Virus record (IMG/VR): IMGVR_UViG_3300010885_036424
Coordinates: 1 to 24,112 of that record
Length of the DNA stretch: 24,112 nucleotides
Direction: 5' to 3' (one strand)
DNA from: a virus
Shown here: in pieces, positions 661-20,181 of the stretch
Numbering within the stretch: the first letter of the stretch is position 1
How the letters are laid out: each line of letters opens with the position of its first letter
The notes under the pieces: model-generated
The model's database searches: none
Told to the model about the DNA's origin: nothing
Seen by the model: only the letters and a program-made list of their open reading frames with translations
Program-made: the position numbers and the translations under genes

Positions 661-1092
661 TAGTCATCTAAGCCCGTTAATTATAATAACACAGCACTGT
701 ATAATAACACTCTAGTTCTCCACAGGTACATAAGATAACCTAGTATTTGCAATGCTTTATAAGAAACGACCTGGGGAAAACTATCATAAATCTGGGGAAA
801 ACTATCATAAATCTGTGTAAAAGCAAAACTATTATAAATAATAACATCTAAGATATTCATAGAGCAGCACTTGAACTCTCCTACGGGACCAAGAGGTAAC
901 AATCTGACAGGGTAGACGAGATACTTTATATGATAACAAGAGGGAGTTAGTACACGGTCTCCGGCGCAATAAAATCGTTGATATAACTAGATTGTATCAG
1001 TAATCAGTTTCAAATTAGAATACAATAACTATTCATTTGAATTCAGTTGAGATTAACACCTTAAAGTATAACAAAAGACCAATGCAGGTCTT
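661..1092. other. Gene-poor stretch between repeat arrays
   Basis: No convincing gene is seen on either strand. The only longer frame, on the minus strand across 681-902, reads through the 21-bp tandem repeat and has no family resemblance. The stretch contains that duplication (771-812), a perfect T4-type late promoter motif TATAAATA (833-840) with no gene close downstream, and a short sequence resembling the 3' end of a tRNA (871-891). Confidence 0.6.
771..812 (+). repeat. 21-bp tandem duplication
   Basis: Two adjacent identical 21-bp copies (771-791 and 792-812) begin CTGGGGAAAACTATC and end ATAAAT. A diverged third copy follows at about 813-839, starting CTGTGTAAAAGC and ending ATTATAAAT. 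The repeat length is a multiple of three, but no plus-strand ORF covers it. Confidence 0.9.
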
Positions 1093-1224
1093 ATGATAAC
1101 TCTTTTCTTAAAGTATAAAGAAATGGGTGATTTTGTTGTATGTAATATTATTCGTTTATATGATACCCTGGGTATAGTTGACATTTCCTTCAAGCAGTGC
1201 TATGCTATTCGTGTTGCACAGTAG
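1093..1224 (+). CDS. Putative micro-protein (43 aa) overlapping a repeat array
   Basis: An ATG-to-TAG frame of 43 codons. The translation starts MITLFLKYKEMGDFVV and contains the segment YDTLGIVDISFKQC. The second half is encoded by the first copy of the repeat array (the palindrome ATACCCTGGGTAT encodes part of DTLGI). Another short ATG frame (1225-1314, 29 codons, starting MTVTVIRHK) begins directly after its stop codon. Later repeat copies keep recognisable amino-acid similarity in the same frame (SI.CKxCC, TVTVRHHKVF) but contain stop codons, so the array may derive from duplicated and decaying copies of such a gene. No family is recognised. Confidence 0.35.
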   Translation: MITLFLKYKEMGDFVVCNIIRLYDTLGIVDISFKQCYAIRVAQ

Positions 1225-1720
1225 ATGACAGTTACCGTCATTCGTCATAAAATATTTACATTAGACAGAGTTCGTCTATTACTGTGCGGTCGCTTCGTGT
1301 ATAATGACCTCTAAGTGCTTCGTGTATGATACCCTGGGTATAGTTAGCATTTTGTGTAAACGGTGCTGTTAGAATGCCTCACAGCAGTTGCTGACAGTTA
1401 CTGTAAGGCACCATAAAGTATTCTTATATGCTATACCAGTTCTTTATACAACCATCGAAACATCTTCGTTTATTCATACCCTGGGTATAGTTAGCATTTC
1501 GTGCAAACAGTGCTGTTAGTAACTATGCCGCACCAGTTCTTTATGCTTACCCTGGGTATAGTTTGTAAATATAATCAAACAGTTGTGATTAACAGTTATT
1601 ATAAGATTTCGTTTATTGTATACCCTGGGTATAGTTTATAATTATAATCAAACAATACTGATAGTTATTAAAATATTGTTTCGTCTATTATAATAAAACA
1701 GCACTGTTTGACAGTTATAT
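1151..1720 (+). repeat. Degenerate repeat array with five 13-bp near-palindromes
   Basis: The near-palindrome ATACCCTGGGTAT occurs at 1163-1175, 1329-1341, 1476-1488 and 1620-1632, with a one-base variant at 1547-1559. The spacings are 166, 147, 71 and 73 bp, the last two close to half of 147. Copies are preceded by TTCGTTTAT-like sequence and followed by AGTTAGCATTTCGTGCAAAC-like sequence and then CAGTGCTGTTAG or its variants. A related unit lacking the palindrome lies near 1679-1720, with ACAGCACTG, the inverse of the CAGTGCTGT element. The array may be decayed coding duplications, a protein-binding array (replication origin or recombination site), or a structured RNA region. Confidence 0.8.
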
Positions 1721-1740
1721 TCTGCGTTGTTTGGTTCTTA

Positions 1741-1974
1741 TTGGTAACCGATGCTTAAAGGGTTTCTAAGGGTCTAAAAGCTAATTTGAAGGGTCCCTGT
1801 AACCTACAAACCTTTGAAAACGCTTGAACATATACACATCAAAGAAAAAAAAATTCCAGGATTTAGAAATCTATAAAAAGGTTTATGAGCATATAAAAAA
1901 AATGCCCATAAAAAAAATCTCACAAAAAGTCAAAAACACTATATAAAAAGAAACACCCCCCATCAGAAGAATAA
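1741..1974. other. A-tract-rich leader without a recognisable gene
   Basis: Non-coding stretch between the repeat array and the next ORF. It holds three AAGGGT direct repeats (near 1758-1795), then several A7-A9 tracts (about 1850-1930) of the type that bends DNA. No clear -35/-10 pair was found. The only ribosome-binding-like sequence before the ORF at 1975 is a weak AGAAG. Confidence 0.5.
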
Positions 1975-2127
1975 ATGAAATTAGAATTTGACGATTACGA
2001 GAAGGACATTTTACTAGAAACCATTCAACATAGATTAGATACGGATAAGATATTGATAATCAATAATTCGCTTCGAGAAGAATTAAAAGACCTTCTGAGA
2101 AAAGTAGAAGAAGATGAATACTTATAA
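1975..2127 (+). CDS. Hypothetical small acidic protein (50 aa)
   Basis: A 50-codon frame from ATG to TAA, with product MKLEFDDYEKDILL through KVEEDEYL. It is highly charged and predicted helical (LREELKDLLRKVEED), without membrane segments. It resembles in style the tiny acidic proteins found near the structural modules of T4-like cyanophages, but I cannot assign a function. Its end overlaps the next gene by 14 nt in another frame, which supports both being genuinely translated as a coupled pair. Confidence 0.6.
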   Translation: MKLEFDDYEKDILLETIQHRLDTDKILIINNSLREELKDLLRKVEEDEYL

Positions 2128-6365: not shown

Positions 6366-9300
6366 ATGTCTGAAATTAAAAGAGTTAAAATCAATCACAT
6401 CCTAGATTCTCAAATTCCAGAGTTTCTTAATGAAGATTCTCCTCTATTTAAAGAGTTTCTGAATCAATATTATATTTCACAAGAACACCAAACTGGTATT
6501 GTTGATTTATCAAATAACTTACCAAAATATAAAAGTATTGATAATTTAAATAACGAAACTCTAATTGATATTGGTCTTAAATCTCAGTTAGTATCATCTA
6601 TTTTACCATTCGATGATACTATTAATGTTTCTCATACAATTGGATTTCCAGATAATTATGGATTATTAAAAATTGATAATGAAATTATTACATATACCTC
6701 AAAAACTAAAACTTCCTTTATTGGTTGTGTTCGTGGATTTAGTGGAATTGAAAGTTTCACCAATAATAATGATCCAGAATTTTTGACATTTTCTTCCACA
6801 TCCGAAGAAGATCACATTGAAGGTTCTATTGTAAATAATTTAAATTTCACATTCTTTTTTGAATTTTTTAAAAAATTCAAATATCAATTTTTACCTGGTT
6901 TCGAAGAAAGGAATTTTACTTCTGGAGTTTCTATTCAAAATATTTTATCAAAAGCAAAAGATTTCTATACATCAAAAGGAACCGACCAATCGTTTAATAT
7001 CCTATTCAAAGTTCTTTTTGGTGCAGAAGTAGAAATAATTAAGCCTCAGGATTATATGTTGAGGCCATCTGATAATAATTATTTCATAACAAAAAATATA
7101 TTAGTAGAAAAAATTTCCGGAGGAGATCCCCTTTTATTACCTGGATCTACACTCTATCAAGATATTATTGGTGTAGGTACTGCATCTGCATCAATTTATA
7201 ATGTCGAATATAGACCAATACAAGGAAAAGATTTATATGAAATATCTCTTGACAAATCTTCATTTATTGGATCATTCGAATCAACAGGAACAACAAAAAT
7301 AATCGAGAATACTTCACTCGAATCGACAGTATTGAATGTTGATTCTACAGTTGGATTCGCATATTCAGGAACAGTATATGCAAACAGCAATTATGGAAAT
7401 ATACTTATACAATATACCGACAAAACAAATACACAGTTATTGAATATTACTGGACTAACGCATGAATTGAATTTTGGAAATCAAATTTACGAAAATAAAT
7501 TAGCATATTCATATATTGAGTCCAATATAACTTCTCCAATCGAATTTAGAGTTATTAATGTAATTGGAGATATTGATTTCAGCAAATCTTCGAATTTGAG
7601 AAAGGGAGATAAAATATCATTAAGTTCATTTGGAAAAAATATTTCAGATAACTATAAATTTACAAGTTGGATTTATAACATTCCAACACACCACAACATC
7701 AGTTCTATCGAAATCATATCAGAACTTACATATAGAATACATTTGAAAGATGATGTAAATTTTTATGTAAATGAAAAAATTTATATAATAGATGGAGAAT
7801 CTCAAATTGAAGGAACAATCACACAAGTTAACGATGGAATTGTTATATCTACTGGAAGTAATTTAGATTTAAATAAAATTAATAGCATCAGAAGAACTCT
7901 TTCAAAAGCAAATTCGGATATTTTTCCCGAGGTATCCTCAATATGTGCATCTATACAAAATACATACATTGATAAAGAAGAAGAATATTTATATGTAACT
8001 TGTTCTGGACTTCCTGATTATAAACTAAGTTGTACTTCAACTATAGGTATTATTACTTCTGTTGGTTCAGGAACATCTATTTTTATTTTACCAGATCATA
8101 ATTTCCTAACTGGAGATAAAATTTATTATAAATCCAATTCCAGTGAAATTTCAACTGGAATATACTTTTCTACAAAAATAAGTAACAACGAAATTAAATT
8201 ATCTTACAGTAATGGAGATATTTTTGAAAAAAAATATATTAAAATTAATAATAAAATCACATCAGATCAAGCCAATAGACTTGGTTATGAAAATAAAACC
8301 ATTAAAGATCAAAGATTATTAAAAAAATTCAAATTAAATGATAATATTGAATATTTTGATAATCCAACAAAAAGAACAACATTTAATAGATCCGTTGGTC
8401 TTTTGGTAAATGGAGTAGAAATATATTCTCCATCATTATTTGATGAAAATATCTACTATGGAATGTTAGATTCCATTATCGTTACAAATTCTGGAAAAGA
8501 TTACGATGTAATAAATGCCCCAAGTGTTATTATTAATGATTCTTCTGGATCTGGAGCAAAGGCACATCTAGCAATTTCTGGTTCCGTAAAAGAAGTAAAG
8601 GTAAATTATCCTGGTATTGGATATGACAGAAAACCAAAAATAACAATCGTTGGTGGAAATGGAAATGGTGCTGTATTAGAATCCAATTTAGTAAAATCAA
8701 AAATTGTTTCTAGTTTCAAATCAAATAATACATACACAAATCCATTTACAGATACGATCACATTTTTAAATAATCATAATTTTGATGATAACGAAGAAGT
8801 AATTTATTCATCAAATGGAAATACAAATGTTCCTGGATTAATCAACAAATCAAATTATTTTATACAAAACATAACACAAAACTCAGTAAAACTATATGGA
8901 TCAAAAAATGATTCTATAGTTGGTATCAATACGATAAACATTACTGGAATTAGTTCTGGGTTCCATCAATTGAGTACTCTAAATTCAAAAAATACTATAA
9001 CAAAAATATATGTAAAGAATGAAGGAGAGAATTATTCAAATAGATTAGTTAAAATATCTTCCAATCCACATCCAAATTTTGATTTTAGTGTGATATCCGG
9101 AATCAATACCGCAGATAATTATGTTTTTGCAAAAAATCACGGATTTAAAAATGGAGATTACGTAAGATACTTACACACAGATACTTCCATAATTGGTTTA
9201 TCTACTAATATAGAGTATCAAGTAACAGTAGTAGATCAAAATAAATTCAAATTATCTGATGCTGGAATAGGAAATACATCCACTAATCAGAATTATTTAA

Positions 9301-12300
9301 ATAAAAAATATGTTCAATTTGATTCTTTTGGTATAGGAACTCATACATTTTACTATCCACCTATAGAAATTAATATAGAAACAGTATCTGGAATTGGTTC
9401 TACTGCCATCGTTTCTCCATTATTAACTCCTGTAATTTTGGGTTCTATTGAGAGTGTTTATATTGAAGATGGTGGGGTCTCCTATGGTTGTTCCGATATA
9501 ATTAATTTTCATAGAAGACCAAATGTTGGTTTATCTTCAATTAGTTCTGCTATATTGAAACCTGTAATTATAGATGGTCGTATTTCTGATGTTCAAGTTA
9601 TATTTGGTGGTAGTGGATATGATAATGGAACTGAAATAATAGTATATGGAAATGGAAAATATGCGGATTTGAAGCCCATAATACAAGGAGGATCAATCAT
9701 ATCAATAAACATTGAAGATAGTGGAATTGGTTATACATATCCAGATACAGTATTAAGTGCAATACGAAGAGGAGTTGATTTAAAATTTGTAGCAAATGTT
9801 TTTGAATGGAAAATAAATCAAGTCGAACGCAATAAAAAATTAATCGAATCCAATGGAGGAAATGATGAGGCAATTACTCATCCATCAATAGATTCTAGTT
9901 TGGGATTACAACCAATAAATTTTTATCTACCAAAACAACTTAGAGTAAATATTGGAGATAATATTTATGATTCCGATCCATCCAACTATAAACATTCTCC
10001 AATTATAGGTTGGGCATATGATGGAAATCCAATTTATGGACCATACGGATATGTAAATTTAACCGATAAAACAGTTAAATTAATTGAAACTAGCTATGGT
10101 ATGACAAATCAGTATGTTAGTACTCTTAGGCCAGATAAAACTATTTTTGCTCCTGGTTTCTTCATTAATGATTATGAATATAAATCTTCTGGTGATTTGG
10201 ATGAATATAATGGAAGATATTGCACTACTCCGGAATATCCTTATGGGACGTATGCATACTTTACAACATTTCACTTAGCATCAAATATATTAATTCAAGA
10301 TTATCCATATATTGTTGGGAAAAAATTTAAAGATACTCCATTGATGGAAAATTTCGATCCAAGTTTCTCCCAAGATAAAAATATATCTCAATATAATTTA
10401 ATTAGAAACTTTAGTAATCATTATATAGATTCTACTAATTCTGGATATGAAATTCTTGAGAAAATTTCCCCGAAACTAAATCAAGAATTTAGAGTAACTG
10501 AAATAAAAAAATCTGGAATTTCTTCAATTTTTATTGATTCTGCTGGAATAAATTATTCGGTTGATGATGTTATTGGATTTGTAGAATCAAATGAAGGTAC
10601 TGGAGTAAGTGCTCAAATTTCCAGAATAAATGGAAAAAATATTTCAAATCTTACTATTGGAGTAACTACTTTTGATGATGTTATATTTTATTTAAAAGAA
10701 ACTAGTTCAAATAATATAGTTGGTATAACTTCTTCCATTCATAATTTCACCGATGGTGATAAAATTATAATTTCTGGAATATCTACAATTACACTTTCCC
10801 AATTAGAGGGAACAAAAACTATTTTTGTTAATCAAAATACAACTGGATTGACTACAGATATCCAGAATGTATCCGCAACTGGAATATCAACTTTTATTGA
10901 AGTTAAAGATATATTTGGATTCCAAGTTAATGATTCAATTGGAATAGGATCTGAAAGTATGATTATCACTGGTATAGTTCCAGAAAAATCATATTTATTA
11001 GTAAATAGATCAAATAGTGGAGGAATTCACAGTGTAGGTATAGAAAGTGTAAAACTTCTCACTAATAAATTTGAATTTTATGAACAAAAACCCATTGGAT
11101 ATGTAATTCCAGAAAATAAAACAATATATTTTGACCCAACAAATACAATTGGGTATGGGCAAAGTGGTTCTACTTATTCTGTTGTTGGTATTGGATCGAG
11201 TACAATAAATCCAAGATTTGTTCCATCTAGATCAATTTATATACAAAATCACAAATATTATACTGGACAGCCTTTAATTTACAATTATTCTGCTGGTGCA
11301 GGTATAAGTGCATATTCAGAAGAAGATTCTTCTATTATAAAATTAGAAAATAATCAAATCATTTATGCGGTAAATATTGGGGATAATTTACTTGGAATTT
11401 CTACATTAGGATATACTACTTCTGTAGGAATTGGAACTACATTAAATTCTTTAGTATTTTTATATAATTCTACAGTTGGTTATTCTCATTCACTCACAAC
11501 ACATTATCCAATAATTACAGGAAAAGTTCAGAATTATGCTGGAATTATAACTACTTCAGAACCACATAATCTTGAGAATGGAGATAAAATTAGATTTACA
11601 ATTCTTCCTTCACGAGAAGAAATAGTTAAATTTAGATATGATGCAAAAAATAAAAAAATAACTACCGATTTAATTGGAATTACGACAGATTTAGTCTCAA
11701 TTGGATCATCGTCTAATATTAATATTGTTAATAACTCACTAAAGACTGGAGATAAAGTAATTTATTATTCTGGAGGTAGTGCAATTGGAGGACTGGTAGA
11801 TAAATCAATATATTACATATTAAAACAAAATCCCGATAAAATTCAATTGTCAAAATATGCATATGATGCATCCGTTGGAATTTCTATATCCTTTACTTCT
11901 GTTGGTGTTGGAACTCATAATATTGCACTAATAAATCCACCAATTTCATTCTCGAAGGGAAATATAATTACATTTGATATATCAGATTATTCTTTAACTG
12001 ATATGAAATTGGAATTTTATAGGGATCAAAATTTCCAAAAGAAATTTGAAATAGACAAAAAACAAACCACACCATTAGCAATTAATAGAAGTAATGTTGG
12101 ATCAGTTTCTGTACACACAAACCAAAGAGACGTGCCAAGTTTATTATATTATAATTTCATTCCAACTTCCCACGAAGATATTGATAAATTTAGCATATCA
12201 TATGATGCTGAAGTTGTTGGAAACAATAAAATAGACATTAGATCAAGTATTCTATCTTCCGATCAAAATATTATATCAATTGGGGAAACATCATTTAAAT

Positions 12301-15300
12301 TTAATCTAAATCAAAAACCAGAATACATTTCATATACTCAATCTTCTGGTGTATCTTCAGTATTTTATGATACAGACTCAAAGAATGCAACTGGTTTAAT
12401 ATCAAAGATAAGAGTAAATTCTAGTGGAAAATCATATACATCATTGCCGCAGATTACTTCAATAGTAAGTACATCTGGAAGTGGAGCAGTTTTATATGCA
12501 GTTTCTGATGAAATTGGAAAAATCACATCAATTGATAGGATAAAAGATGGATTTGATTATCCATCAGATCCAACTATTGTACCACAATTGAGCATACCTG
12601 CAGTTTGCATAATTAAAGATATTGCTAGAATTGGTTATGTTAATGTTTTATCTGGAGGAAATAACTATAATACTCCACCAAAATTAAAAATAATTGGAAA
12701 TAATGAGGTATCATTAACAGCAAAGGCTCAGGGAGGAACAGTAACTGATGTAGAAGTAACAAAAAATACATTCAATTTAAAAAATCCTTTGAGAATTGTT
12801 CCTTATAATAATTCTAATGGATATGAAATATACACAATCAATGCTGATAGTGTTTCTGGAATTGGAACAATAGAATTACTTGATGATTATATCATATATC
12901 CACGAATGACTACTGGATACGGATCTACAGAAACAGTTTTCCCATTTTCAGTTGGAGATGAAATTTTTATCGAGAAGTGTAGATTAACTACAGCAACATC
13001 TGGACTTTCTAATTTTAATTCTAAAGATCATGGATACAGTTTCTTTACTGTTATCGGAGTAAACACAACAAACTATACTATAAACTACAAAATGCCTGAA
13101 ATATCAGGCATCGGATCATTTGGTAATTATAATGATACATTAACTATTGGGTATGTCGTAAACCGAAAGGATATGCCAGAATTTGAAATGGTATTAGAAG
13201 ATGATGCAAAATATTATTCCGGAGAAAGAGTTATTTCGGGATCTACATTTTCAGCAAAGGTAATGGAAAATGGTTGGGATAATGATACCAACCAATTGAG
13301 GTTAATTGATGTACAAGGAACATTAAATATAAACGATAAACTATATGGCGAGAGATCTAAATTAAATGGAACAATTAAATATATAAGTAATTTCTCTTTA
13401 CCTGCTAATCTCACCCCATATAGAGATAAACTTAATGATTTTGGGGATAAAGTTGGATTTTTAAATGACTCGCAACAAAGAATTTCAGATAATAACTATT
13501 ATCAGAAATTTTCATATTCAATCAAAGGAACTATACCATATACAACTTGGAAAGAACCAATCAAGTCTATTATTCACCCATCTGGATTTAAGGAATTCTC
13601 CGATCTGAATGTTATTGGTATAGTAACAACAGGACCATTAAATCTTGGTATTGGTAAATCCACCAATATGAAAGTAAAAACAATAAATATAAATCCAACA
13701 TTATTAGTAAATATCGATAATGTATCTGATTTATTTGTAAAAAATAATTTTGCTATGGTATATGAGGAGGATAAACTCGATGATGGGACAGTAGAAAGAG
13801 TTTATTTCCCAGAAGGAACAGCATTGAGGTCATATACTTTAAATAAAACAAATAAAGTATTAAGAATTGATGATATAAGTGATCAGTTTACAGGAATAAC
13901 AACTACTTTGGGTGGATCGGTTGTTGGATTGTCTTCATTTAAATTAAAAAATAATGGAGATCCAGTTTTTATTAAGGAATTTTCTGCATCAGATGATGCA
14001 ATTGTAAATATAAATTACGATAAATTTAGTATCATAAATCATAATTTTCAATCAGGGCAAGAGATAGTATATAATAATAATTCTGGAACAATTATTGGTA
14101 TTGCAACAACTTCTTATGCAACAGGAACACTTGATATATTAATGAAAGTTGGGGCTGGAATTGGAAGTGCAATATATGAAAATGGTTACAATAATTACAT
14201 ATCTCCATCAAGTATTGTTGGAATCAGTACTACATTAGTTCCTGCTGGACCATCTTCACAATATTTTGGACTTGGTAATTCATTGCCAAGTTCAGTAAAT
14301 ACTGGAATTGGTACGGGTGCATTATTTCAGATTTTAATAACATATAATACCACAACAGGAGTACCAATAGGAACTTCCTTACAGTTGATCGATGGAGGTA
14401 GAGGATATTCGATAGGAGAACAAGTTTCAATTGCTGGAACATATATGGGAGGTTTAACTCCAGCAAATGATTTGCAATTTACTATATCAAAAGTATCTAC
14501 ATCTAGAGCAGGTATTGCAAATACAACATATGTAAGTGTAGCATCTACTTCTAATGGATCTGGGTCTGGAGCATTATTCGATATTACTAGAGACTCAAAT
14601 AAAGATGTTTCGTTAGTAAATGTCGTTTATGGGGGAGTAGGATATGCGTTAACCGATCAAATTATAATTGCCGGATCTGATGTTGGTGGTTCTGATCCAG
14701 CAGATAATATATATCTGTCTCCAACTTTATTAGGAACAAATAAACTTCCATCAAATATATTTGTTCGTAAAATAGATATAAACAATTTCCAAGTTTCTGG
14801 ATTGTCTACGACTTTAAATAATCCTTTTGATTTAACTTCATTTGGATCTGGAACTCAAACATTTAGTTTTAAAAATCCAAATGAAAATGTGATTATTTCT
14901 ATAGATAATATTATCCAAAGTCCAATTCATAGAAAAAATATATTTTTGGGACTTTCAACTTCAGTAGGTATTTCTTCTAATTTAATATATGTTTCTTCTG
15001 GAATTAATTCAATATTTAATAATGATATACTTAAAATAAATGAAGAATATATAAAAATCAATTCTATAGGTATTGGGTCCACCAATGTATTAAATGTAAC
15101 AAGATCATTTATGGGATCAGTCTCATCTGCACATACGGTTGGTTCCGTCGTATCTATACACAAAGGTGACTTTAATATTATTGATGATATTATATATTTT
15201 TCTACCCCACCATATGGACCAGCAATTGCATCATCAGATCCACAATTAATTGCACATTCTTCATTTGGGGGAAGATTATTTTCAAGACAATTAGATGCAT

Positions 15301-18300
15301 ATATTCCATCTGACGAAAATCTAATATTAGACGATATATCTCCTCAATTTACGGGAATAGCAGCAACTGAATTTGTATTAACATCAAATGGAAATCCAGT
15401 CGTTGGAATTTACACAAATACAAATAGTAGTACAGATATAAACAACAATCCATTCATATTGATTAATAATATTTTTCAAACTCCAGGAATTGACTATACA
15501 GTTGATACTTCCAATAATAATACAATTAAATTCATATCAGGAATTCCAAGTGCAGGAAAAATTGTAAATGTTGCAATAACCACAGGATTTGGATATCAAC
15601 CTCTAATCGGTGCCGCAGCAACAGTTTCGGTATCTGCAGCTGGAACTATCAATTCGATCGCCCTGAATGGCGCTGGAAGTGGATATAGGACCCCTCCAGT
15701 AATAAGTATAGCATCTACTGTAGGGTCTGGAGCAACAATTACATCAACAGTTGGGTTTGGTGGAACAATTACTTCATTAATAATAGAAAATGGAGGAATT
15801 GGATATACATTCACATCATTACCATCTGTAATTGTGGATATCCCTCTACCTTATAGTAATTTGAGTATTGCATACACTGGAGGTTCTTCTGGTAATGGAA
15901 TGGGAGCAAAAGTATCCGTTCAAGTTGGATCTGGATCTAGTATTATTCAATTTTTTATGAATGAACCAGGAATTGGTTATAAAACTGGTGATATATTATC
16001 TGTAGTTGGTTTAACTACAGATCCAAATTCAGGATCGTCATTTAGTGAATTTACCATGACTGTACTTGAGACACTAACTGATAAATTTAGTGGATTTTTT
16101 ACCGGACAGTTTATGTATTTTGATGATTTTTCAAATTATTTTAATGGTTCAAAAACCAAGTTCACATTAACTAAAACTACTTCTGGTATTACCGAAATTG
16201 TAGATTTGAAAAAAAATCCAGGTTCTGATATAGATTTGCAAAATAATTTATTCATATATTTAAATGATATACTACAAATACCAAATGAATCTTATATATT
16301 TTCAGGAAGTAGAATAATATTCACAGAACCACCAAAAAGTGGATCGAAATGTAGCGTCCTATTCTTCATTGGGTCCGTTAGAGATGTAGAAACTATAACT
16401 CCACCAAAAACTATTAAAGAAGGAGATGGTATTCAAATTGGAGAAAATATTTACGATAACTTGGATATTGAACAATTCGAAAGAATAGTCAAAAAAATCG
16501 TATCAAGTGACCAACTCGATACTTACAACTACGATAGTATTGGAATCAATACAGATACAAATAAACAAAGACCACTAAAATGGATAAAACAAAAACAAGA
16601 TAGGATTATAAATGGTTCTTTAGTATCAAAAGCAAGACCAAGTTTAATAGCAACAGTCAGACCAACTACAAAATTAATTAAAAATGTAAATATTGAAGAT
16701 ACTTCGATTTATGTAAATAATGCATTTCCATTATTTACTGCAGTAGATTCATTACCAGAAGAAGATTCTAATGTATTGATAATAGAAAATAGAGATGTAT
16801 TACCAGCAATAGCAACAGCAATAGTTTCTTCTGCTTCTACGATATCTTCAATTGAATTATCAACGGGAGGAATTGGATATGCATATACATCTTCGCCAAT
16901 AGTTGCTATTTCTTCTATTTCTATACAATCGAAGGATCCAATTTTTAATTGGAATAGTTCAATTGGACTATCTACGGATGCTTCTTTATTATCAATAGTA
17001 TATGGAAATCCAATAGTTTCCGTTGGACAGAGTGGAGTTGTTGCAATTACTACAGATGCAAAAAATTACAACTCAATTTCTAATATTGGGTTTGGGAAAA
17101 CTATAAGTTTTAATTCCATTGGGGTCGGTTCTACCAATACCTATATTGCGGTTGGAGAATTTGGAAAAATAGTTACTGCGGTTGGATTTGGTACGACAAT
17201 TTCATCTTGGGTAGAAATGAAAAAGTACGAACAACTGAATTCCATTGGCATTACTCAATATACTGAAAGTTCTTATAATTCTACTTTTAATGATGTAAAA
17301 TATTCATCAACACTAGACAAATGGATTATAGTTGGTGCTGGCGGAAGTATATTCTCTGCTATTGGAATTGGTAGTACTTCATTTTTATTAATGAATTCAA
17401 ACACATCACGAAATTTAAATTCTGTTGCAATTGGAAATCGTACTATAGCAGTTGGTGATAATGGTTTGATTTGTGGTACTCCAAATGCTGATGGAATTTA
17501 TTGGGAAGTTATTCCAAATATAACATCAGATAATTTAAATAAAATCATCTGGACAGGAAATAAGTTTATTATAATTGGGAACAATAATACAATATATACT
17601 TCTACATTTGGAATTTCTTGGGATATAATCGTACCAAATATTAGTGGAGATTTTGTAAATATTGATTATAATGATTATTACAAAATATATCTACTGTTAG
17701 ATTTATCTGGAAATTTATATTATTCCTTTGATTTGCAAATTTGGACATTAAGATCAACATCACAATCAAATATAATACAGGATATTTTATATCTAGATGA
17801 CGTTAAAGCATATACTTTAGTTGGATCTGGAGCAACATCAATTTATTCAATTCCTACTTATAATCTTGCAACTGCAATATCCAATACTACTGCAGGAATA
17901 GTCACTTCAATTTCAATTACAAATCCCGGATTTGGATATAATGAAAATAATTCTCCAAATGTATTGATTGAACAAGACAAATCAATAACTGAACAAATAG
18001 TATCAATTAAAGCAAAGGGAGATTTTGGAATAATTGTTGGTGTGGATACTAGTTTGGGAATTGGATCATCACTTCCACAACTAATATTTCAATTGCAATC
18101 AGAATCTTATGATAATACCACATTAGGAATTGGATATTCATCATTAGATAGTTATGGGATATATTATAGTGGAATATTACCTGGAGATCATTTTGTAATC
18201 TATGATAGTAATGTTCAATGTGGACATGCACTAACTGGTATTACAACTTCCAATAATACAATAACTCGTATTGGAACTGCCTATACATATATCGATGGAG

Positions 18301-18575
18301 TATATTGTGCAGAAGAAGTTCAAAACTCTGGTGTTGGAATCGTGACTGTATTTTGTAAATTCTTACCAGGTCCAGGATATACAAATAAAATAATAGTAAA
18401 TGCGGATGCGTCTAATGGTTTTTATGGAAAATATAGTTGGGGAAAAATATATGATTATCAAAATAGAGGAATTAATTCTCCAAAAAATTTCACAATAAAT
18501 ACAAATGACGGATTGCTTGGTTTATCATCTGCTCCAGATGTAACTAGAACCAGAGGTTTATTTAAAAGTAAATAA
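6366..18575 (+). CDS. Giant virion structural protein (4069 aa), YHYH-like and beta-repeat
   Basis: Probable baseplate-associated structural protein in the syntenic place of T4 gene 7. The N-terminal 240 residues follow a pattern recurrent in T4-like cyanophages: QIPEFLNEDSPLFKEFLNQY (16-35), FLPGFEERNF (177-186), KDFYTSKGTDQSFNILFKVL, then RPSDNNYF. A YHYH-like domain lies at about 1190-1305 (WAYDGNPIYGPYGY at 1216, TPEYPYGTYAYF at about 1287); the usual YHYH tetrapeptide reads YAYF. GxGY-type beta-repeats (SGG.GY, GSGA) occur near 705-775, 1025-1150, 1387-1432, 2012-2133, 2648-2782, 3094-3215, 3494-3519 and 3845-3871. A beta-propeller-like section of BNR/YCF48 type fills about 3551-3832 between two GxGY blocks. 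It has no signal peptide or membrane segment. The ATG directly follows the gp6 stop, without a clear binding site, suggesting coupling. Fibre or decoration roles are inferred. Confidence 0.85.
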   Translation: MSEIKRVKINHILDSQIPEFLNEDSPLFKEFLNQYYISQEHQTGIVDLSNNLPKYKSIDNLNNETLIDIGLKSQLVSSILPFDDTINVSHTIGFPDNYGLLKIDNEIITYTSKTKTSFIGCVRGFSGIESFTNNNDPEFLTFSSTSEEDHIEGSIVNNLNFTFFFEFFKKFKYQFLPGFEERNFTSGVSIQNILSKAKDFYTSKGTDQSFNILFKVLFGAEVEIIKPQDYMLRPSDNNYFITKNILVEKISGGDPLLLPGSTLYQDIIGVGTASASIYNVEYRPIQGKDLYEISLDKSSFIGSFESTGTTKIIENTSLESTVLNVDSTVGFAYSGTVYANSNYGNILIQYTDKTNTQLLNITGLTHELNFGNQIYENKLAYSYIESNITSPIEFRVINVIGDIDFSKSSNLRKGDKISLSSFGKNISDNYKFTSWIYNIPTHHNISSIEIISELTYRIHLKDDVNFYVNEKIYIIDGESQIEGTITQVNDGIVISTGSNLDLNKINSIRRTLSKANSDIFPEVSSICASIQNTYIDKEEEYLYVTCSGLPDYKLSCTSTIGIITSVGSGTSIFILPDHNFLTGDKIYYKSNSSEISTGIYFSTKISNNEIKLSYSNGDIFEKKYIKINNKITSDQANRLGYENKTIKDQRLLKKFKLNDNIEYFDNPTKRTTFNRSVGLLVNGVEIYSPSLFDENIYYGMLDSIIVTNSGKDYDVINAPSVIINDSSGSGAKAHLAISGSVKEVKVNYPGIGYDRKPKITIVGGNGNGAVLESNLVKSKIVSSFKSNNTYTNPFTDTITFLNNHNFDDNEEVIYSSNGNTNVPGLINKSNYFIQNITQNSVKLYGSKNDSIVGINTINITGISSGFHQLSTLNSKNTITKIYVKNEGENYSNRLVKISSNPHPNFDFSVISGINTADNYVFAKNHGFKNGDYVRYLHTDTSIIGLSTNIEYQVTVVDQNKFKLSDAGIGNTSTNQNYLNKKYVQFDSFGIGTHTFYYPPIEINIETVSGIGSTAIVSPLLTPVILGSIESVYIEDGGVSYGCSDIINFHRRPNVGLSSISSAILKPVIIDGRISDVQVIFGGSGYDNGTEIIVYGNGKYADLKPIIQGGSIISINIEDSGIGYTYPDTVLSAIRRGVDLKFVANVFEWKINQVERNKKLIESNGGNDEAITHPSIDSSLGLQPINFYLPKQLRVNIGDNIYDSDPSNYKHSPIIGWAYDGNPIYGPYGYVNLTDKTVKLIETSYGMTNQYVSTLRPDKTIFAPGFFINDYEYKSSGDLDEYNGRYCTTPEYPYGTYAYFTTFHLASNILIQDYPYIVGKKFKDTPLMENFDPSFSQDKNISQYNLIRNFSNHYIDSTNSGYEILEKISPKLNQEFRVTEIKKSGISSIFIDSAGINYSVDDVIGFVESNEGTGVSAQISRINGKNISNLTIGVTTFDDVIFYLKETSSNNIVGITSSIHNFTDGDKIIISGISTITLSQLEGTKTIFVNQNTTGLTTDIQNVSATGISTFIEVKDIFGFQVNDSIGIGSESMIITGIVPEKSYLLVNRSNSGGIHSVGIESVKLLTNKFEFYEQKPIGYVIPENKTIYFDPTNTIGYGQSGSTYSVVGIGSSTINPRFVPSRSIYIQNHKYYTGQPLIYNYSAGAGISAYSEEDSSIIKLENNQIIYAVNIGDNLLGISTLGYTTSVGIGTTLNSLVFLYNSTVGYSHSLTTHYPIITGKVQNYAGIITTSEPHNLENGDKIRFTILPSREEIVKFRYDAKNKKITTDLIGITTDLVSIGSSSNINIVNNSLKTGDKVIYYSGGSAIGGLVDKSIYYILKQNPDKIQLSKYAYDASVGISISFTSVGVGTHNIALINPPISFSKGNIITFDISDYSLTDMKLEFYRDQNFQKKFEIDKKQTTPLAINRSNVGSVSVHTNQRDVPSLLYYNFIPTSHEDIDKFSISYDAEVVGNNKIDIRSSILSSDQNIISIGETSFKFNLNQKPEYISYTQSSGVSSVFYDTDSKNATGLISKIRVNSSGKSYTSLPQITSIVSTSGSGAVLYAVSDEIGKITSIDRIKDGFDYPSDPTIVPQLSIPAVCIIKDIARIGYVNVLSGGNNYNTPPKLKIIGNNEVSLTAKAQGGTVTDVEVTKNTFNLKNPLRIVPYNNSNGYEIYTINADSVSGIGTIELLDDYIIYPRMTTGYGSTETVFPFSVGDEIFIEKCRLTTATSGLSNFNSKDHGYSFFTVIGVNTTNYTINYKMPEISGIGSFGNYNDTLTIGYVVNRKDMPEFEMVLEDDAKYYSGERVISGSTFSAKVMENGWDNDTNQLRLIDVQGTLNINDKLYGERSKLNGTIKYISNFSLPANLTPYRDKLNDFGDKVGFLNDSQQRISDNNYYQKFSYSIKGTIPYTTWKEPIKSIIHPSGFKEFSDLNVIGIVTTGPLNLGIGKSTNMKVKTININPTLLVNIDNVSDLFVKNNFAMVYEEDKLDDGTVERVYFPEGTALRSYTLNKTNKVLRIDDISDQFTGITTTLGGSVVGLSSFKLKNNGDPVFIKEFSASDDAIVNINYDKFSIINHNFQSGQEIVYNNNSGTIIGIATTSYATGTLDILMKVGAGIGSAIYENGYNNYISPSSIVGISTTLVPAGPSSQYFGLGNSLPSSVNTGIGTGALFQILITYNTTTGVPIGTSLQLIDGGRGYSIGEQVSIAGTYMGGLTPANDLQFTISKVSTSRAGIANTTYVSVASTSNGSGSGALFDITRDSNKDVSLVNVVYGGVGYALTDQIIIAGSDVGGSDPADNIYLSPTLLGTNKLPSNIFVRKIDINNFQVSGLSTTLNNPFDLTSFGSGTQTFSFKNPNENVIISIDNIIQSPIHRKNIFLGLSTSVGISSNLIYVSSGINSIFNNDILKINEEYIKINSIGIGSTNVLNVTRSFMGSVSSAHTVGSVVSIHKGDFNIIDDIIYFSTPPYGPAIASSDPQLIAHSSFGGRLFSRQLDAYIPSDENLILDDISPQFTGIAATEFVLTSNGNPVVGIYTNTNSSTDINNNPFILINNIFQTPGIDYTVDTSNNNTIKFISGIPSAGKIVNVAITTGFGYQPLIGAAATVSVSAAGTINSIALNGAGSGYRTPPVISIASTVGSGATITSTVGFGGTITSLIIENGGIGYTFTSLPSVIVDIPLPYSNLSIAYTGGSSGNGMGAKVSVQVGSGSSIIQFFMNEPGIGYKTGDILSVVGLTTDPNSGSSFSEFTMTVLETLTDKFSGFFTGQFMYFDDFSNYFNGSKTKFTLTKTTSGITEIVDLKKNPGSDIDLQNNLFIYLNDILQIPNESYIFSGSRIIFTEPPKSGSKCSVLFFIGSVRDVETITPPKTIKEGDGIQIGENIYDNLDIEQFERIVKKIVSSDQLDTYNYDSIGINTDTNKQRPLKWIKQKQDRIINGSLVSKARPSLIATVRPTTKLIKNVNIEDTSIYVNNAFPLFTAVDSLPEEDSNVLIIENRDVLPAIATAIVSSASTISSIELSTGGIGYAYTSSPIVAISSISIQSKDPIFNWNSSIGLSTDASLLSIVYGNPIVSVGQSGVVAITTDAKNYNSISNIGFGKTISFNSIGVGSTNTYIAVGEFGKIVTAVGFGTTISSWVEMKKYEQLNSIGITQYTESSYNSTFNDVKYSSTLDKWIIVGAGGSIFSAIGIGSTSFLLMNSNTSRNLNSVAIGNRTIAVGDNGLICGTPNADGIYWEVIPNITSDNLNKIIWTGNKFIIIGNNNTIYTSTFGISWDIIVPNISGDFVNIDYNDYYKIYLLLDLSGNLYYSFDLQIWTLRSTSQSNIIQDILYLDDVKAYTLVGSGATSIYSIPTYNLATAISNTTAGIVTSISITNPGFGYNENNSPNVLIEQDKSITEQIVSIKAKGDFGIIVGVDTSLGIGSSLPQLIFQLQSESYDNTTLGIGYSSLDSYGIYYSGILPGDHFVIYDSNVQCGHALTGITTSNNTITRIGTAYTYIDGVYCAEEVQNSGVGIVTVFCKFLPGPGYTNKIIVNADASNGFYGKYSWGKIYDYQNRGINSPKNFTINTNDGLLGLSSAPDVTRTRGLFKSK

Positions 18576-18597: not shown

Positions 18598-20181
18598 ATG
18601 CCTGCTATTATATCTGACCAATTTAGAATATTGAACGCCGAAAACTTTACTAAAAGTCTTGTTGGAATCGGACAAACATTAAATCGTTATTATACATTTA
18701 TTGGTCAACCAAATTCAACAAATACATTTGCCGGAGGATCTTCTTCTTGGGGAACTGGACCTTCTCCATTGGATGGATTTAAGGAAGAAAATGATATTAA
18801 AGACACGATTATTGCTATGAAACAAGTAACTACGGACGATGTTCGTAGAGTAGTCAGAAAAGTAACTTGGACTGCGGGAACTACGTATGAAATGTACAGG
18901 CACGATTATAATATATACAATAAAACTCCAATAACAAGTCAAGCTAATCTTTATGAAGCAAATTATTATGTAATCAATGAAGATCTTCGAGTTTATATTT
19001 GTCTCCATAATGGAGCAGATCCAGAAAATCAAAAAGGAAGACCTTCATATGATGAACCAAATTTCATAGATTTAGAGCCAAGATCTGCCGGAACTTCTGG
19101 AGATAACTATATCTGGAAATACTTATATACAATCAAACCATCGGAAATTATAAAATTCGATTCAATCGAATTTATTCCAGTTCCAGAAAATTGGGGAGAA
19201 GTTGGTGAAAGTATTTCATCAAAGGCAAATGCCGTAGATGGAAAGATCAATACTGTTATAATTAACCAAAGAGGTGATGGGTATAATCCAACATCATCCA
19301 CATTTACAGATATACCAATACTAGGAAATGGAAGTGGAGGAAAGGTAACGGTAACAACAGATTCCTTTGGTAAAGTTTCAGAAGTTTATATTACTGATGG
19401 CGGAAGTAACTATACATATGGGACTATTAAATTTGAACCGGGAGCTCCTGGAATTACTACTTCATTGAGTAATGTTGGTGTTGGCACTTCATCAATTGCA
19501 TCGTTTGATGTAATTATTCCACCAAAGGGAGGGCATGGATATGATGTCTATAGAGAACTTGGAGCATATCGTGTTTTAATATACTCCAGATATGAAACTT
19601 TAGAATCAAATCCAGATATAATTTCAGGAAATGATTTTGCAAGAATTGGAATTATAAAAAATCCAACAATTTCAGATAGTCAAGTAGAACTTTTAAATAC
19701 ATCAATAGTAAGTGGGTTAAAAGCATTAAAATTCACAGGTTCTGCTACCACTGCTACTACATATGCAGTAGATTCCACAATTACCCAAACAGTTGGATTG
19801 GGTTCTACTGCAATTGGATTTGTCGCTTCTTGGGATAATATTACTGGTGTTCTTAAATATTATCAACCGGTTGGTTTAGCAACAACGTCTGTTGGTTATA
19901 ATATTATAAACTTTACTTCAAGTCCTGTATCTGGAGGAAATCTAACAATATATGGTTCTTCTATGAATGGAACACCAGTACTATCAATTGATTCTGGATT
20001 TAGTGGTATATCCACAACAATAAATAATAGACTATACCAACTTGGAATGACCTTCAACTCTGGAATTGCTTCAGCAGAATTTAATAAAAAGTCTGGAGAA
20101 ATCATATACATAGATAATAGATCAGCAATACCAAGATCTTCCAGTCAAAAAGAAGATATTAAAATTATATTGGAGTTCTAA
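18598..20181 (+). CDS. 8: Baseplate wedge subunit gp8, extended
   Basis: T4 gp8-like protein, which in T4 forms dimers bridging gp7, gp10 and gp6 in the wedge. Matching segments are YYTFIGQP (31-38, compare IFITFGRSEPW in T4), VYICLHNG (132-139, compare VYRCLD) and GDNYIWKYLYTI (168-179, compare GDGYVWEYLFEI). At 527 residues it is much longer than T4 gp8 (334). The extra length follows residue 200 and holds GxGY beta-repeat sequence of the same type as in the giant protein (INQRGDGYNP and ITDGGSNYTYG, residues 219-281). The ATG at 18598 is the only sensible start. No Shine-Dalgarno is seen, but late-promoter-like motifs precede it. It ends 9 nt before the next gene. Confidence 0.88.
   Translation: MPAIISDQFRILNAENFTKSLVGIGQTLNRYYTFIGQPNSTNTFAGGSSSWGTGPSPLDGFKEENDIKDTIIAMKQVTTDDVRRVVRKVTWTAGTTYEMYRHDYNIYNKTPITSQANLYEANYYVINEDLRVYICLHNGADPENQKGRPSYDEPNFIDLEPRSAGTSGDNYIWKYLYTIKPSEIIKFDSIEFIPVPENWGEVGESISSKANAVDGKINTVIINQRGDGYNPTSSTFTDIPILGNGSGGKVTVTTDSFGKVSEVYITDGGSNYTYGTIKFEPGAPGITTSLSNVGVGTSSIASFDVIIPPKGGHGYDVYRELGAYRVLIYSRYETLESNPDIISGNDFARIGIIKNPTISDSQVELLNTSIVSGLKALKFTGSATTATTYAVDSTITQTVGLGSTAIGFVASWDNITGVLKYYQPVGLATTSVGYNIINFTSSPVSGGNLTIYGSSMNGTPVLSIDSGFSGISTTINNRLYQLGMTFNSGIASAEFNKKSGEIIYIDNRSAIPRSSSQKEDIKIILEF

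Follow-up and report, generated by a model that had tools for sequence, protein, structure and literature searches.

An iteron-like repeat array upstream of the baseplate genes of T4-like cyanophages as a candidate part of a phage replication origin

The repeat array and its surroundings

The DNA analysed here (24,112 nucleotides of the virus record IMGVR_UViG_3300010885_036424, hereafter the window) belongs to the genome of a T4-like cyanophage, a 24-kb fragment in which gp25, S-adenosylmethionine decarboxylase and baseplate families were matched. One ORF of 4069 codons occupies positions 6366-18575, and the corresponding position is annotated as the gp7 baseplate/structural protein in S-SSM7 and P-SSM2. 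A preliminary description of this DNA had pointed to a five-copy near-palindrome array at 1151-1720, in a gene-poor region. The region is indeed gene-poor, with a single ORF of at least 60 codons between about 400 and 1975, which encodes 73 aa on the minus strand and spans degenerate DnaA-like boxes. The copy number holds as well: the 13-mer ATACCCTGGGTAT is exact in four units and one base off in another (Table 1), and the 16-mer TACCCTGGGTATAGTT occurs exactly five times (1164, 1330, 1477, 1548 and 1621), with no further occurrence in the 24-kb record. Spacings had been given as near 73 or its double, and the measured ones are 166, 147, 71 and 73. When the region was simulated 2000 times with a Markov model, no 13-mer ever occurred more than twice, and the array of the window is no assembly artefact since an independent contig (L012) carries the same five copies. 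The array lies where it was described, but its outer limits had been drawn too narrowly, the homologous region extending from about 714 to 1832 or beyond. The A+T content of this region is 58-79% in 100-bp steps, nearly equal to that of its neighbourhood. To the left of the DnaA-like boxes, at 498-664, a repeat of about 40-60 bp (TATAGTGTTATGTGTGTTATCTTGAAGTAATGCTATTTCT) is present three times, 85-96% identical to the reference copy.

Table 1. Features of the non-coding region and of the first ORF downstream, in window coordinates
Feature	Position	Strand	Basis or remark
DnaA-box-like 9-mer TTCTCCACA, one mismatch to TTTTCCACA	716..724	+	aligns with perfect boxes in relatives
DnaA-box-like TTTTCCCCA, one mismatch	772..780	-	21-bp direct repeat 771-812; alignment with relatives
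DnaA-box-like TTTTCCCCA, one mismatch	793..801	-	21 bp from the 772 box; alignment
DnaA-box-like TTTTACACA, one mismatch	814..822	-	21 bp past the 793 box; alignment
TTCGT-rich stretch	1140..1740	+	10 on + strand, 0 on -, about 1 expected
Palindromic core, unit 1 (ATACCCTGGGTAT)	1163..1175	.	exact match
Sigma70-type promoter in unit 1 (TTGACA, 17 nt, TATGCT; TG before -10)	1178..1206	+	motif match
Palindromic core, unit 2	1329..1341	.	exact match
Palindromic core, unit 3	1476..1488	.	exact match
Palindromic core, unit 4, first base changed (TTACCC...)	1547..1559	.	sequence match
Palindromic core, unit 5	1620..1632	.	exact match
Sixth, terminal unit without palindrome (GTTTCGTCTATTATAATAAAACAGCACTGTTTGACAGTTATA)	1678..1719	+	PWM match; kept in L006, L014, L043, L052 and others
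Short motif AACCGATGC	1746..1754	+	kept between array and CCE in relatives
CCE (conserved cyanophage element), 58 bp, core GGGTCCCTGTAACCTACAA at 1791-1809	1775..1832	+	top PWM score of the window, 24.6 vs -10.4 for the next
First downstream ORF, 50 aa (MKLEFDDYEKDILLETIQHRLDTDK...)	1975..2127	+	similar DNA in relatives; no Pfam/PHROG match

The first unit differs from the others in carrying a match to a promoter. Among 11 representative arrays, unit 1 reads TTGnnn-17-TATnnT in 10, with a spacing of 18 in the remaining one, and the two hexamers are conserved while the sequence of the spacer varies. Tandem promoters in every unit were considered and rejected, as a convincing -10 is found in unit 1 only.

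The homologous region in related cyanophages

The unit exists elsewhere, which the preliminary description had proposed to check: scanning viral contigs for the 16-mer returned 19 stretches, and the use of the neighbouring glycosyltransferase-like gene as a query brought in many further relatives. One match, in L003, was set aside as due to chance, being single, without an array and in an apparently coding region. A host source of the array was also discarded because bacterial genomes gave only six scattered matches in unrelated taxa. The relatives have this non-coding region too, ahead of the genes that follow it in the window, and its parts come in a fixed order. Its left part consists of DnaA-box-like repeats followed by 2-5 units of 40-75 bp and by a unit devoid of palindrome; its right part consists of AACCGATGC and C-rich DNA, then the CCE, then A+T-rich DNA and, often, a 50-codon ORF. 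The palindromic core is confined to this region across up to 53 kb of array-bearing contigs, all of which are genome fragments, several of them mutually close and hence not independent. As a separate observation, a GIY-YIG nuclease gene (Pfam PF01541) lies directly to the left of the units in L019 (14016-14378, minus strand); an ORF similar to this nuclease is found to the left of the units in L009, and a similar sequence in L038.

The CCE is found family-wide. With a 61-base query, matches were obtained at 322 places in 321 of 50,697 phage records, and every one of these 321 is from a cyanophage. A weight matrix picks out a single clear best site in each genome, among them Syn9, S-SSM5, S-WAM1, S-SM2, S-CAM1 and, weakly, S-PM2; it detects none in the T4 stretches scanned. 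Wherever the gp25 and gp6 baseplate genes are in view, the CCE is upstream of them. It comes as ACTACCCTAACCTACAA or GGGTCCCTGTAACCTACAA, with a coupled change CCTAC/GCTAT/TCTAT. We found no description of it in the largely open-access literature searched.

The arrays also show a pronounced strand bias. In 7.1 kb of arrays, TTCGT occurs 115 times on the plus strand and 4 times on the minus strand, for about 10 expected per strand, an excess of about 11-fold that is restricted to one strand. In P-SSM2, S-BM3 and DSL-LC02, no stretch of the genome is denser in strand-specific TTCGT than the one adjoining the CCE; in S-SSM7 and the IMG genome G013 the densest stretch lies elsewhere.

Conservation of the unit body and of its core

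The units are made of a body, with the consensus TAGTTT..TATTATAATCAAACAGT..TGT, and of a GC-rich palindromic core that differs between phages: TACCCTGGGTA in the window, CTCCCAGGGGGG in L043, CCCACCCCC in L039, CACCCCCCATA in L041 and L052, and TACCTGGGGAT in L038. In core sequences that were chosen and aligned by eye, the mean number of mismatches out of 11 is 1.26 within a phage vs 4.2 between phages, a within-phage likeness that was reached by none of 10,000 permutations. Core identity is 0.97 across the positions of one phage and 0.65 across phages at one position, while the order is reversed for the body (0.63 and 0.74, respectively). A few phages (L006, L007 and L010) mix two core types. 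As first described, the palindrome is more conserved than the remainder of the unit within the phage of the window, but between phages the palindrome is the most variable part.

At the sequence level, the array shares with iterons the multiple copies of a repeat that is homogeneous within its replicon. Copying from repeat to repeat could be thought of as the source of the identical cores, but it is disfavoured by the fact that the unit body follows the array position and not the phage. Plain copying would have evened core and body alike, so a core that varies from phage to phage but hardly within one is better read as pointing to a sequence-specific binding protein of changing specificity.

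DnaA boxes and the conserved element

The sequence TTTTCCACA is the DnaA box of most cyanobacteria (PMC4674748, PMC3480399), and the DnaA of Cyanothece binds it in vitro, according to EMSA and footprinting (PMC4674748). The repeats in the left part of the region are GTTTTCCACAG. In eight array-bearing contigs, TTTTCCACAG is present in dozens of copies, all but about two of which are inside the region, often 21-22 bp apart, and some contigs have up to a dozen perfect boxes. The homologous block is present in the window, where each of the four boxes is one mismatch off, and L009 and L019 have variant boxes (TTCTCCACA) only.

Clusters of these host-type boxes, defined as at least two perfect boxes within 60 bp, were also looked for in 19 complete cyanophage genomes. 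Twelve clusters were found in 10 of the genomes and none in the other nine, and all 12 lie between 5.9 kb upstream and 0.1 kb downstream of the CCE, with none elsewhere, the 6-kb limit around the CCE having been set after inspection of the data. Almost all the clusters are upstream of the CCE, at distances between box and CCE of less than 0.1 to 5.9 kb. If the same boxes were scattered at random, a cluster would be expected in 0.18 genomes, as computed for 16 genomes; the remaining three (S-RSM4, S-CRM01 and P-RSM4) have no cluster. Three of the ten genomes with a cluster (P-SSM7, S-WAM1 and DSL-LC03) came from a box-rich query and are therefore not independent. Among nine genomes chosen blind to the boxes, five have a cluster, which is upstream of the CCE in all five. 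Many isolates have only two or three boxes each. Triplets of near-identical geometry are found in S-PM2 (19231-19264) and S-CAM3 (61247-61281), that of S-PM2 overlapping annotated tRNA genes and spanning the tRNA-Asn/tRNA-Leu junction. Cumulative GC skew was tried as an origin locator and proved uninformative, as it is monotonic along all five near-complete genomes, with no turn at the CCE.

Function of the region

What can be read directly in the sequence is how the region is built and conserved, where the DnaA boxes lie, the match to a promoter and the pattern of the core. The preliminary description had offered two options, a binding array, possibly at an origin, and a family of structured small RNAs. 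The former is favoured by the DnaA-box clusters, the family-wide CCE, the core pattern and the unit-1 promoter, and the latter found no support. We consider that there is about an even chance that a phage replication origin lies at the left border of the baseplate module and that the array is its iteron-like part, to which protein binds. We infer all the functional steps of such an origin, which would be as follows. The left cluster of DnaA boxes would be bound by the host DnaA, or by a substitute in those phages that lack perfect boxes, and a phage DNA-binding protein, with a specificity that depends on the phage, would bind the GC-rich palindromic core of the units. The host RNA polymerase would then start at the sigma70-type promoter of unit 1, and the transcript, on its rightward course through the array to the CCE, would, as happens at T4 origins, open the duplex and might prime synthesis. 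Entry would take place at the CCE and in the A+T-rich DNA that follows it. No initiator protein was found among the adjacent small ORFs, which were scanned without any Pfam or PHROG match in array genomes that are incomplete.

Transcription control would also account for a non-coding position ahead of late genes, and this is the main alternative: the region would control the structural (late) block, with the units as operators of a phage regulator around the unit-1 promoter, and with the CCE as a conserved leader or late-promoter region. The region does precede baseplate genes wherever the annotation is visible, it has a near-consensus promoter in unit 1, and next to the CCE there are TATATAAAA stretches similar to the late promoter NATAAATA (PMC2984593). 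Such a role would, however, leave the DnaA-box clusters and their 21-bp phasing unexplained. It also has to accommodate a good -10 in the first unit only, as well as the small genes, some with a TATATAAAA of their own, that separate the region from the baseplate genes. We regard it as rather unlikely.

The E. coli datA locus offers a model for another role of the boxes, in which the clusters would titrate the host DnaA and thereby halt the replication of the host chromosome, with a separate role for the units. The contigs with up to a dozen perfect boxes would suit a DnaA sponge of this kind, but the two or three boxes of many isolates would not, and neither the linkage to the CCE nor the core pattern would be explained, which makes it improbable. 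A site of recombination, packaging or exclusion, that is, a hot spot or a sequence recognized by a terminase or nuclease of the phage, next to which homing endonucleases insert, seems slightly more improbable still. It would be in keeping with the fast change of the core and with the nuclease sequences to the left of the units in L009, L019 and L038, but T4-type packaging is not known to require a unique site, and nothing ties DnaA boxes to packaging.

Finally, that the units encode a family of structured small RNAs is highly improbable: the 610-nt region does beat shuffled sequences in folding (z of -2.5 on the plus strand and -5.8 on the minus strand), but these whole-region scores were discounted, since repeats that are palindromes necessarily pair with one another, whereas single units fold like shuffles (z of -0.8 to +1.1), Rfam gives no match even at E = 1, and no conserved secondary structure was found. 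The CCE was likewise rejected as a structured RNA, since RNAalifold yields no consensus structure for it, from a set in which some sequences are doubtful matches.

The origin reading matters because T4-like cyanophages are among the commonest viruses of the ocean, and their replication start has so far been the subject of a prediction, that of a single theta origin in Syn9 (PMC2984593). The box clusters suggest that cyanophages use the host DnaA, which goes without mention in the part of the account of T4 origins considered here (PMC3016281). Together, the CCE and the box clusters provide exact coordinates in the isolates Syn9, S-PM2, P-SSM7, S-SM2 and S-SSM5, which place the region near 52.6-53.5 kb in Syn9, at 58.1-58.9 kb in S-SM2 and at 49.3-49.9 kb in S-SSM5. 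The core, which changes from one phage to the next, also lends itself to studying how the binding sites of an origin and their protein change together. Going further, one may tentatively propose, as a possibility that we hold to be rather doubtful, that T4-like cyanophages have one CCE-marked origin locus that hijacks the host DnaA and carries phage-specific iterons of fast turnover. If true, this would be the lytic-phage counterpart of plasmid incompatibility or of the origin warfare between PLE and ICP1.

Comparison with known systems

The region shares with the cyanobacterial oriC the clustered TTTTCCACA boxes (PMC4674748, PMC3480399), but it has no adjacent dnaN or dnaA, it belongs to a phage genome, and it carries the iteron-like units and the CCE in addition. 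With iteron plasmids and with the origins of the Vibrio cholerae PLE and of ICP1, it shares semi-palindromic iterons; known there are also an origin specificity that shifts under attack and GIY-YIG-type nucleases that target origins (PMC8263062). It differs from them in that no Rep/RepA gene was found beside the cyanophage array.

In T4 itself, oriF, or ori(uvsY), also has a promoter followed by an A+T-rich stretch, and it adjoins gene 25 (T4 record), a loose positional parallel to the cyanophage region upstream of gp25. The promoter of oriF is nevertheless a MotA middle promoter, and cyanomyoviruses are devoid of motA and asiA (PMC2984593). Of the known systems, T4 oriE comes closest. In the part of the published account considered here, it combines a repeat cluster of 12-nt iterons kept in related phages, an early-mode promoter of the host type and a baseplate-gene setting (PMC3016281, T4 record). 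T4 has several origins, and the same part of the account is silent on DnaA boxes at oriE and gives the replication role of the oriE iterons as never shown (PMC3016281). The cyanophage region is distinguished from oriE by its palindromic core in units of 40-75 bp, by its DnaA boxes and by the CCE. The GIY-YIG gene beside the units has, in turn, its T4 parallel in segC and segE, which are annotated in the T4 record near oriE and oriF.
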